A stretch of 64,000 nucleotides of DNA. Source: Emticicia sp. 21SJ11W-3 (GTDB taxonomy: Bacteria > Bacteroidota > Bacteroidia > Cytophagales > Spirosomataceae). Location: the NCBI RefSeq assembly GCF_024138715.1, contig NZ_CP092074.1, forward strand, positions 2,046,001 to 2,110,000. Direction: 5' to 3'. Below the pieces are notes generated by a model. That model was given only the letters and a program-made list of their open reading frames with translations. It searched no databases and was not told where the DNA came from. Position numbers and translations under genes: made by a program. Shown here one piece after another: positions 50,324-53,412 of the stretch. Each line of letters opens with the position of its first letter. The first letter of the stretch is position 1.

Positions 50324-50635
50324 TTATTCAGAAATAGTGCGGGAATTAACCTGAAGACGGATTCTTGGTTTTTCGGCTGCAGCAGGTTTAAACTGAATAA
50401 ACCACGCCAGAATTTCGTCCATCACAGTCATATTAAGCGAGTAATATATAAACTGCCCTTTTTTTACGGCAGCCACAAGGTCGGCCTGTTTCAGCAAATC
50501 AAGGTGATGCGAAATGCTGGGTTTGGTCATATCAAAGCGCTCTGCAATGTCTCCTGCAGTCATGTCTCCATCTTTCAGCATCTCCAGTATTTCCCGACGG
50601 GTAGAGTCGTTCAGCGCTTTAAATAAACTATTCAT
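50324..50635 (-). CDS. ArsR-family repressor, SdpR-like
   Basis: A 103-aa winged-helix protein: LFKALNDSTRREILEMLKDG, then AGDIAERFDMTKPSISHHLDLLKQADLV with the recognition helix, and GQFIYYSLNMTVMDEILAW. There is no metal-binding cysteine cluster, consistent with the SdpR autorepressor branch and not a metalloregulator. It is the first gene of a two-gene operon with the SdpI-like protein and probably represses its own promoter. Confidence 0.86.
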   Translation of the reverse strand: MNSLFKALNDSTRREILEMLKDGDMTAGDIAERFDMTKPSISHHLDLLKQADLVAAVKKGQFIYYSLNMTVMDEILAWFIQFKPAAAEKPRIRLQVNSRTISE

Positions 50636-50821
50636 TTGGAAAAGAGAATCGGTAGTTATTGAACAAATGTTATTGATACGAAATTCTGAAAAAAAATCAG
50701 TTTTGCCAAATAATACTGCTTAAATATTTAGATAATCTTCTAAATAGCGTTTGCCTTCCGAGTCTATTCTTTGAAAAACACAATTTTGCAGCTATTTTTC
50801 TTTCTTTGGTATTTAAATCAT

Positions 50822-50829
50822 TATATTTG
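50822..50829 (+). promoter_or_regulatory. -7 box of thrA
   Basis: TATATTTG matches TAnnTTTG exactly. A T-run ending at 50799 stands at the -33 distance, without the G. Predicted transcription start is about 50836, giving a leader of about 115 bases. Confidence 0.4.
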
Positions 50830-50849
50830 CGCACACTTCATCAATAAAC

Positions 50850-50896
50850 GCCCCATTCCTTGCCGAAGTGGGGTATTTTTTTGTTCGGCGGCAAAC
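50850..50896 (+). promoter_or_regulatory. Candidate transcription attenuator in the thrA leader
   Basis: A terminator-like hairpin (50851-50857 with 50867-50873, seven pairs with one G-U) is followed by ATTTTTTT (T7 at 50876-50882), only some 15 bases after the predicted start and 70 bases before thrA. A competing stem, GCCGAA (50862-50867) with TTCGGC (50884-50889), shares bases with the terminator's loop and right arm. No leader peptide with Thr codons is visible. There is no plus-strand gene just upstream that would need a terminator here, as the upstream gene is divergent. Confidence 0.5.
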
Positions 50897-50952
50897 AGAA
50901 GCGTAATTGCTTGTGCAGATTAATGATGTAGTAATTTATCAACCAGAAGATA

Positions 50953-53412
50953 ATGAAAGTTTTAAAGTTTGGGGGCACCTCGGTAGGCACAGTAGAAAGT
51001 ATCAATCAGGTTATTCAGATTATCAAAGAGAATCTGGACGAAGGAAGTAAAATAGCTGTAGTGTATTCTGCTATGGGTGGTGTAACCAACAGGCTGATTG
51101 AAATTGGCAAGATGGCGTCGCAGTCAGACCCTGAATTTACCGAACAATTGCGTTCGGTAGAAGACAGACATTTCAATGCAGTTAAAGGGCTTATTGATAT
51201 AAAGAACCAGAGCAGTGCCATTGCAAAAGTAAGAGGGCTGTTTAATGAACTGGAAGACCTGCTCAAAGGCGTGTCGCTTATAAAGGAATTATCGAATCGG
51301 ACACTGGATTTAATAGTGAGTTTCGGTGAAAGGCTTTCTACTTCTATTATTACCGAGGCTTTAAAAAACAAAGGCATTGAAGCAGAGTTTTTAGATGCAC
51401 GAAAGGTAATTAAAACTAATGATGCGTTTGGGCATGCTGATGTAAATTTTGAGCTGACCAATGAGCTGATTCGCAAGCATTTTGCCCAGACTAATAAACT
51501 GCAGTGTATTACCGGCTTTATTGGTTCTACTATAGACGGGGTTACTACTACCTTGGGCAGAGGAGGCTCTGACTACACCGGGTCAATTTTTGGTGCTGCC
51601 CTGAACGCCAGCGTGATAGAAATCTGGACGGACGTAAACGGTATGATGACGGCAGACCCGCGCAAGGTAAAGAATGCTTTTACGATACCAACCATAACCT
51701 ATGCCGAGGCCATGGAGCTTTCGCACTTTGGGGCTAAGGTTATATATCCGCCAAGTCTTACACCTGCTTTTTACAAGAATATCCCAATTAAGGTTCTCAA
51801 TACTTTCAATCATAAGCATCCGGGTACGTTTATCAGCAAAACCGCCGAAACCAAAGAGTATTCTATAACAGGCATATCTTCTATTGATGACATCGCCCTC
51901 ATCAATGTACAGGGTGGTGGTATGATAGGCGTGGCGGGTATATCGGCCAAGTTGTTTTCTATACTGGCCAAGAACAAAATCAGTGTAATACTGATATCGC
52001 AGGCTTCGTCTGAACATTCCATCTGTTTTGCCGTAGAGCCGAAGTCAGCCTATGGCGTAAAAGAAATTCTGGAAGAAGGATTTGCTACTGAAATAGCCCA
52101 GGGATTGTTAGATAACATAGCCATTGAGCATAACCTTTCTGTGCTTGCCGTTGTAGGCGAAGGAATGAAATCAAGCTCGGGTACATCCGGCAAGTTGTTT
52201 TCTGTTTTGGGTAAAAACGGTATTAATGTGGTGGCTACGGCTCAGGGGTCTTCTGAGCTTAACATTTCGGTTGTAATACATAAAAAAGATATTGGCAAGG
52301 CGCTTAATGCTATTCATGAAACCTTTTTTCAGGTAGATGGGCTTACGCTCAATCTGTTTGTGGTGGGTGCAACCGGGCTTATTGGCAGTACGCTGATACG
52401 CCAGATTCGCGAGCAGAAAGATTACCTGAAGTCTCGCAAGAATTTGAATATCAGGCTGGTGGGTATCACCAATACCCGTAAAATGATATTGAATGAAGGA
52501 GGCATAAGCCTGGAAACCTGGAAGGAGGAACTACTGGAAAACGGAGATATAGCAAACATAGGCTCTTTTGTATCTGACGTACAGGATCTGAACATGCCCT
52601 ATAGCGTGTTTGTTGATTGCACGGCCGATAAAAACATTGTTCAGTACTATTATTCGCTTCTGAGTTCAAGCGTATCAATAGTAACCCCTAATAAGGTGGC
52701 TAATTCTGGAAAGTTTGAGCAATACTTTATGCTGCAAAAAGCTGCCCAGAAACACGGCGTGAAGTTTTTGTATGAAACCAACGTTGGGGCAGGGCTACCC
52801 ATTATTAACACGCTTCAGGGGCTTATAACGAGCGGAGACAAAATTCATAAAATAGAAGCCGTATTGTCGGGTACATTGGCCTATATCTTCAATAATTTCA
52901 GAGTAGGCGAAAGATTTGTGGATGTAGTTAAGGAGGCCAAGGCCAAAGGCTACACAGAACCAGACCCACGTGACGACCTGAGCGGCCAGGATGTAGCCCG
53001 CAAGATTTTGATTTTATCAAGAGAATGCGGATTGAGACTGGAACCCGAAGACGTAAAAATCATCAACCTTTTGAACGATGCCTGTCTGCAAGCCAAAACA
53101 GTTGAAGATTTTTTTGTGGAATTAGAAAAAGATAATAACCGTTTTGAGCAACTTCTGGCTGAAGCCGAAGCAAAAGGCGAGGTGCTGCGCTATATTGCTA
53201 CTCTGGACGATGAAAAGGTTACCATTGAACTGAAATCGGTAGGTCGTAACCATCCGTTTTTTAATCTGGCGGGTTCAGAGAATATTGTGTCATTTACTAC
53301 CGAGCGGTATAAATTTAACCCATTGGTTATTAAAGGCCCGGGTGCAGGTGCTGAGGTAACGGCATCTGGTGTATTTGCCGATATCATGAGCATCAGCAGT
53401 TATCTGGGTTAA
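50953..53412 (+). CDS. thrA: Bifunctional aspartokinase / homoserine dehydrogenase
   Basis: An 819-aa fusion catalysing the first and third steps of threonine/methionine synthesis from aspartate. The kinase domain (about 1-285) opens KFGGTSVG (5-12) and includes TLGRGGSDYTGSIFGAAL and VNGMMTADPRKV. Two ACT regulatory units follow (about 300-460: SIDDIALINVQGGGMIGVAG, then LAVVGEGMKSSSGTSGK). The dehydrogenase begins near 467 with VVGATGLIGSTLIRQI and contains VTPNKVANSG, YETNVGAGLPIINTLQ, and EPDPRDDLSGQDVARKILIL. The ACT units suggest feedback by threonine. metH in the same window consumes the homoserine branch product. Confidence 0.97.
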   Translation: MKVLKFGGTSVGTVESINQVIQIIKENLDEGSKIAVVYSAMGGVTNRLIEIGKMASQSDPEFTEQLRSVEDRHFNAVKGLIDIKNQSSAIAKVRGLFNELEDLLKGVSLIKELSNRTLDLIVSFGERLSTSIITEALKNKGIEAEFLDARKVIKTNDAFGHADVNFELTNELIRKHFAQTNKLQCITGFIGSTIDGVTTTLGRGGSDYTGSIFGAALNASVIEIWTDVNGMMTADPRKVKNAFTIPTITYAEAMELSHFGAKVIYPPSLTPAFYKNIPIKVLNTFNHKHPGTFISKTAETKEYSITGISSIDDIALINVQGGGMIGVAGISAKLFSILAKNKISVILISQASSEHSICFAVEPKSAYGVKEILEEGFATEIAQGLLDNIAIEHNLSVLAVVGEGMKSSSGTSGKLFSVLGKNGINVVATAQGSSELNISVVIHKKDIGKALNAIHETFFQVDGLTLNLFVVGATGLIGSTLIRQIREQKDYLKSRKNLNIRLVGITNTRKMILNEGGISLETWKEELLENGDIANIGSFVSDVQDLNMPYSVFVDCTADKNIVQYYYSLLSSSVSIVTPNKVANSGKFEQYFMLQKAAQKHGVKFLYETNVGAGLPIINTLQGLITSGDKIHKIEAVLSGTLAYIFNNFRVGERFVDVVKEAKAKGYTEPDPRDDLSGQDVARKILILSRECGLRLEPEDVKIINLLNDACLQAKTVEDFFVELEKDNNRFEQLLAEAEAKGEVLRYIATLDDEKVTIELKSVGRNHPFFNLAGSENIVSFTTERYKFNPLVIKGPGAGAEVTASGVFADIMSISSYLG

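Follow-up and report, generated by a model that had tools for sequence, protein, structure and literature searches.

The thrA locus of Emticicia sp. 21SJ11W-3 raises the question of what an intrinsic terminator would do when placed between the promoter of a gene and the start codon. We analysed a window of 64,000 nucleotides from this 5.18-Mb genome (G000), in which thrA (50953–53412, plus strand) encodes an 819-residue bifunctional aspartate kinase/homoserine dehydrogenase I (NF006959, 1035 bits against a cut-off of 726), a central enzyme in threonine and methionine synthesis. The neighbour on the upstream side, an ArsR-type gene of the SdpR family (50324–50635), lies on the minus strand and is divergent from thrA; as an earlier note on this DNA had pointed out, no plus-strand gene upstream needs the terminator. 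Downstream of thrA are aroA (282.8 bits, just below the curated cut-off of 287.25) and then pyrB, not thrB or thrC. At thrC (1117107–1118114 of the genome), no Thr-rich leader was seen by eye. Only one further thrA-like gene was found in this genome; it corresponds to residues 1–462, the aspartate kinase part, so the cell seems to rely on thrA for the homoserine dehydrogenase step, and some readthrough of a terminator in the thrA leader would be needed.

The predicted thrA promoter has a −7 box, TATATTTG (50822–50829, plus strand), which is of the form TAnnTTTG and fits the Bacteroidetes sigma-A −7 box. This box spans −12 to −5 relative to the start (PMC9723704), a position rule that would place the start of thrA at about 50834 on the plus strand. 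TATATTTG is present in all 12 Emticicia loci compared, and a TAnnTTTG site precedes thrA in 50 of 50 loci scanned (some genomes counted twice), a set made up of the window and 49 loci from Emticicia, from its family and from a few other named records. Between the T-run described below and the ATG, no second TAnnTTTG was found in any of the four species aligned, so a polymerase carrying sigma-A probably cannot reach thrA without passing the terminator. A promoter read by another sigma factor might still lie there. Further upstream, about 46–68 bases 5′ of the predicted start, a box ATTCTTTGAAAAACACAATTTTG (50766–50788, plus strand) is identical at 21 of 23 positions in four species. The box, with the sequence TTTGAAAAACACAATTTT, may be a UP-like element or a site for an activator or other regulator. 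A similar box is recognisable by eye in other Emticicia thrA leaders, those of species without the terminator included.

The −7 box is followed by a hairpin at 50850–50874 (plus strand) and a T7 tract at 50876–50882, as the earlier note had reported. The hairpin consists of nine pairs closed by a six-nucleotide loop: the 5′ arm GCCCCATTC, the loop CTTGCC, and a 3′ arm in which GAA and TGGGGT are separated by a bulged G at 50868. Folding gives it −11.3 to −11.9 kcal/mol across four species, and a single A (50875) separates it from the T7 tract, the predicted termination point. The candidate terminator (50850–50882) thus sits between the promoter of thrA and its ATG, and the nearest gene upstream points the other way. 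Scanning 2,001 nt on both strands with a simple consensus returned one terminator-like site against 1.8 ± 1.5 in shuffled sequence, so the site by itself is not beyond chance. Of 200 shuffles, 195 fold less stably than the 51-nt stretch 50834–50884 (z = −2.24), and the entire 119-nt leader reaches a z of only −1.31. The case from this genome alone would be modest; it is conservation that raises the terminator above chance.

The window was aligned with three close relatives, BO119 (L046), C21 (L047) and E. agri (L055), whose thrA leaders all hold the same unit of promoter, hairpin and T-run; the four species are close, with 93% protein identity. Between 50831 and the last T of the run, 42 of 52 positions are identical in all four, against 6 of 70 in the remainder of the leader (50883–50952, plus strand). 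By segment, identity amounts to 21/23 in the upstream box, 7/21 in the spacer, 20/21 in the −7 region, 14/19 in the 5′ segment (50831–50849), 20/25 in the stem-loop and 8/8 in the T-run (50875–50882). Four of the five changed positions in the stem-loop are in the loop, and the fifth is in the outermost pair. All nine terminator pairs form in each species; the outer one is A-U in three species and G-U in one, and the other eight are invariant, so covariation cannot be claimed. The distance from the −7 box to the ATG is 123, 147, 213 and 357 nt in the four species, and all but one base of this difference falls 3′ of the T-run. In the E. agri leader (L055, about 2755–2930), several CCCGTAGGGA-type repeat copies lie 3′ of the terminator.

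As a control, 169 called genes near thrA were considered, 50 of which have usable orthologues in all three relatives; these yielded 12 TAnnTTTG sites of 11 genes, although for some it is uncertain that the same site was compared in all four genomes. In the 53 nt that follow the box, thrA ranks first of the 12 sites with an identity of 0.81. The next three, at 0.77, 0.74 and 0.70, show that other leaders of the same four genomes come within this range without the thrA element. One of these genes, prolyl-tRNA synthetase-like as named by eye (genome position 2088988, minus strand; about 42988 in the window), has a leader of 121–127 nt, and the 53 nt following its promoter are 0.77 identical among four Emticicia. 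The window's version of this leader contains CAATCC...GGATTG with a T-run, possibly another leader element.

A covariance model (R1) was built from the four thrA-leader sequences. Its strong matches (E ≤ 4e-10) are all at thrA and occur in 4 of 11 Emticicia genomes; no further strong match came from 200 sampled genomes of the family. Eight other genomes of the 200 gave weak matches (E 0.036–0.097), and the two of them with a known thrA position (G030 and G032) have theirs away from thrA. In the remaining seven Emticicia genomes the thrA leaders are shorter (51–83 nt) and lack the unit. Six of these seven have a CCCCTTYAGGGG-type repeat piece in the leader, which is hairpin-like and unrelated to the terminator. 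In six other Emticicia genomes (among L048–L054), CCCCTTYAGGGGCTGGGGG abuts the start codon of thrA; it is dispersed in three of them, G003, G004 and G010. Judged by sequence, then, the terminator is constrained and clade-specific, being found in 4 of the 11 genomes of the genus.

Several other hairpins and origins were considered and set aside. The hairpin-plus-T6 of Emticicia sp. CRIBPO (L056) would begin 5′ of the predicted +1 and fails the leader scan. L014 passes that scan, but its hairpin begins before +1, and it was not counted as the thrA element. Nor were L021, which passes at −7.0 kcal/mol with a hairpin 44 nt after the box but lies outside the genus, and L012/L051 (one genome), in which a CCCCC..GGGGG hairpin, TTTTATTT, begins at about +1. 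The 16-mer GAAGTGGGGTNTTTTT, with one mismatch or none, occurs once in the genome and the covariance model is strong only at thrA, which argues against a dispersed repeat or a generic terminator. A mobile origin was likewise rejected, as no plasmid match was found. Viral contigs did not match the exact pattern of the element, a pattern limited to the window and C21 forms.

The element does not appear to exemplify a general class of promoter-proximal terminators in this genome. In 2.0 of the 5.18 Mb, we counted terminator-like hairpins of ≤ −7 kcal/mol within 60 nt after TAnnTTTG in divergent upstream regions: nine follow one of 299 such sites, against 6.2 expected if all 64 terminator-like sites are spread evenly over the 136,666 nt of these regions, and two of the nine are copies of one repeated element. 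Among 353 promoter sites, 14 have a terminator-like hairpin of ≤ −9 kcal/mol against 0.4 in shuffles, but many of these are tandem and may terminate the upstream gene. Individual hairpins with a T-run lie ≤80 nt after TAnnTTTG at genome positions 2025866 (+), 32485 (+), 2318914 (+), 4304730 (−) and 272760 (−); by eye, these precede rimP-, rpsJ-, queA-, gmk- and nadA-like genes, and some may end upstream genes.

The earlier note had read the leader as a candidate attenuator with a second stem sharing bases with the terminator. The part of this proposal that stands is an early terminator on the path to thrA, which its position and its conservation in four species support. The two-stem switch fares otherwise. 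In the window the second stem can indeed be drawn between GCCGAA (50862–50867) and TTCGGC (50884–50889, plus strand), but by eye it is absent from BO119, C21 and E. agri, which keep the terminator; of the two stems whose conservation in relatives had been in question, the terminator stem alone is retained, in 4 of the 11 Emticicia genomes. When the stem-loop is paired with the 45 nt 3′ of the T-run, none of the four species does better than its shuffles (fractions of shuffles pairing at least as well: 0.71, 0.36, 0.60 and 0.98). At equilibrium, the five outer C/A-G/U pairs of the terminator form with a probability of 0.88–1.00 in all four species, and folding finds no conserved competing structure that prevails.

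A weaker competitor may lie at the 5′ end. CACTTC (50834–50839, plus strand), identical in all four species and without covariation, is a perfect complement of GAAGTG (50865–50870). For an RNA cut after GAAGUG, the most stable fold is the CACUUC:GAAGUG pairing (−4.2 to −5.1 kcal/mol). The full terminator has −11.3 to −11.9 kcal/mol, the pairing has an equilibrium probability that rounds to 0, and a hexamer complement of this kind arises in 0.6–3.6% of shuffled 5′ segments. We take this pairing as a lead, not a result. That CACUUC acts as a switch, capturing GAAGUG while the final three G of the terminator are still to be transcribed, strikes us as quite improbable, and so does the idea within it that start-site choice, a 5′-end modification or a 5′-bound protein decides the readout of thrA. 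Were such a switch real, it would be a sensor of minimal size, with neither leader peptide nor aptamer. Rfam gave no match at gathering score in the 64-kb window; on 401 nt at E ≤ 5 it gave one snoRNA match only, on the opposite strand (E 1.6), far under the gathering score.

A ribosome-controlled Thr/Ile leader-peptide attenuator of the Mucilaginibacter type is the control seen on the orthologous gene in related bacteria. Among the best 80 of 330 related loci, a scan found a Thr/Ile-rich leader peptide in 58 of the 60 thrA loci L066–L125, mostly Mucilaginibacter, Pedobacter and relatives (Sphingobacteriales), for example MTINNTIITTIITTGINLGGR in L083. In most such loci inspected by eye, a CTTCCTCC-type hairpin and a T-run follow the peptide, and in L066 the two frames after thrA read by eye as thrB and thrC. 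We class these leaders, from their sequence, as putative attenuators. The same scan gave 0 of 10 in L056–L065, which belong also to the 50-locus set. The earlier note had seen no Thr-rich leader peptide, and our scan agrees: the 330 nt 5′ of thrA contain no Thr/Ile-rich peptide, either in the window or in the 49 other loci. The orthologous gene would thus have a classical-looking attenuator in L066–L125 and not in Emticicia. With only 16 nt from the predicted start to the hairpin, and with aroA and pyrB rather than thrB and thrC after thrA, a leader-peptide attenuator in the window is most improbable, and the sequence already refutes it unless transcription starts a long way further upstream. 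What the two systems share is a terminator hairpin in the leader of an orthologous thrA of the same function; Emticicia differs in having no leader peptide and, as far as folding shows, no conserved antiterminator, and its hairpin sequence is unrelated.

Two other known systems bear comparison. Flavobacterium psychrophilum, of the same phylum and with the same promoter type, has structured 5′ transcripts and presumed leader-peptide attenuators before its amino acid operons (PMC9723704); the Emticicia element also precedes an amino acid gene but is not of that type. Premature intrinsic terminators in 5′ UTRs without a known sensor have been surveyed (PMC2965389), and the Emticicia element resembles them in lying between promoter and gene; no inducer or regulator was found for it either. 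A word search of the survey's main text for terms starting with bacteroid, flavobacter, cytophaga, thrA or threonine came back empty (PMC2965389). Among the literature matches listed, from a search that left subscription journals mostly outside, none dealt with a thrA attenuator in Bacteroidetes. Comparative attenuator work of about 2004, threonine included, reportedly touched Bacteroidetes.

The main rival of an early terminator is a small RNA gene of about 49 nt, whose unpaired, conserved 5′ end (CACUUCAUnnAUAnAC) would pair with mRNAs in trans while thrA lives on leakage. Such a gene would have its own promoter and terminator, as the sequence provides here, and the conserved unpaired 5′ segment (14/19), variable hairpin loop and T7 tract suit it; there is also the precedent of Bacteroides thetaiotaomicron, where eight of the nine candidates validated by Northern blot possess both a start site and an intrinsic terminator (PMC7366714). 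However, the promoter sits where thrA promoters sit throughout the family, and 49 nt is short. The invariant complement ATGAAGTGT occurs eight times in 2.0 Mb by a crude word count that includes the locus itself, and by eye its occurrences show no evident group at start codons. We regard a small RNA as rather unlikely. Slightly less likely still is a 5′ hairpin with no regulatory role, mRNA-stabilising or neutral, at whose T-run little termination would occur. The weak single-genome statistics, the confinement of the element to one clade and the unrelated hairpin-like repeat pieces in the thrA leader of six of the seven other Emticicia genomes all speak for it. Against it, the stem and T-run are invariant (the A-U/G-U outer pair aside) and the sequence beyond is hardly alignable, and one would not expect conservation of a neutral hairpin to stop exactly at the T-run.

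Conservation that runs from the promoter to the T-run and ends there would favour an early terminator, and the apparent need for some readthrough, given that the homoserine dehydrogenase step is tied to thrA, would favour one that is leaky or controlled. On balance, we lean towards a promoter-proximal intrinsic terminator in the thrA leader, leaky or regulated, and hence an attenuator in the broad sense; its start site, termination in vivo and regulation we infer from the sequence. RNA polymerase would start near 50834 and make about 49 nt, a fraction of polymerases would be released at the T7 tract, and thrA would be expressed from those that read through. The terminator would act as a leader-peptide-free brake with no stable built-in antiterminator, and readthrough could be either fixed or subject to control, whether through a protein, elongation factors or a stabilised CACUUC:GAAGUG pairing. 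If this is true, an early terminator holds thrA in this group of Emticicia where related bacteria use a leader-peptide attenuator. It would be a small case, with a leader of 49 nt, in which an orthologous gene, located away from thrB and thrC, has exchanged one control for another.
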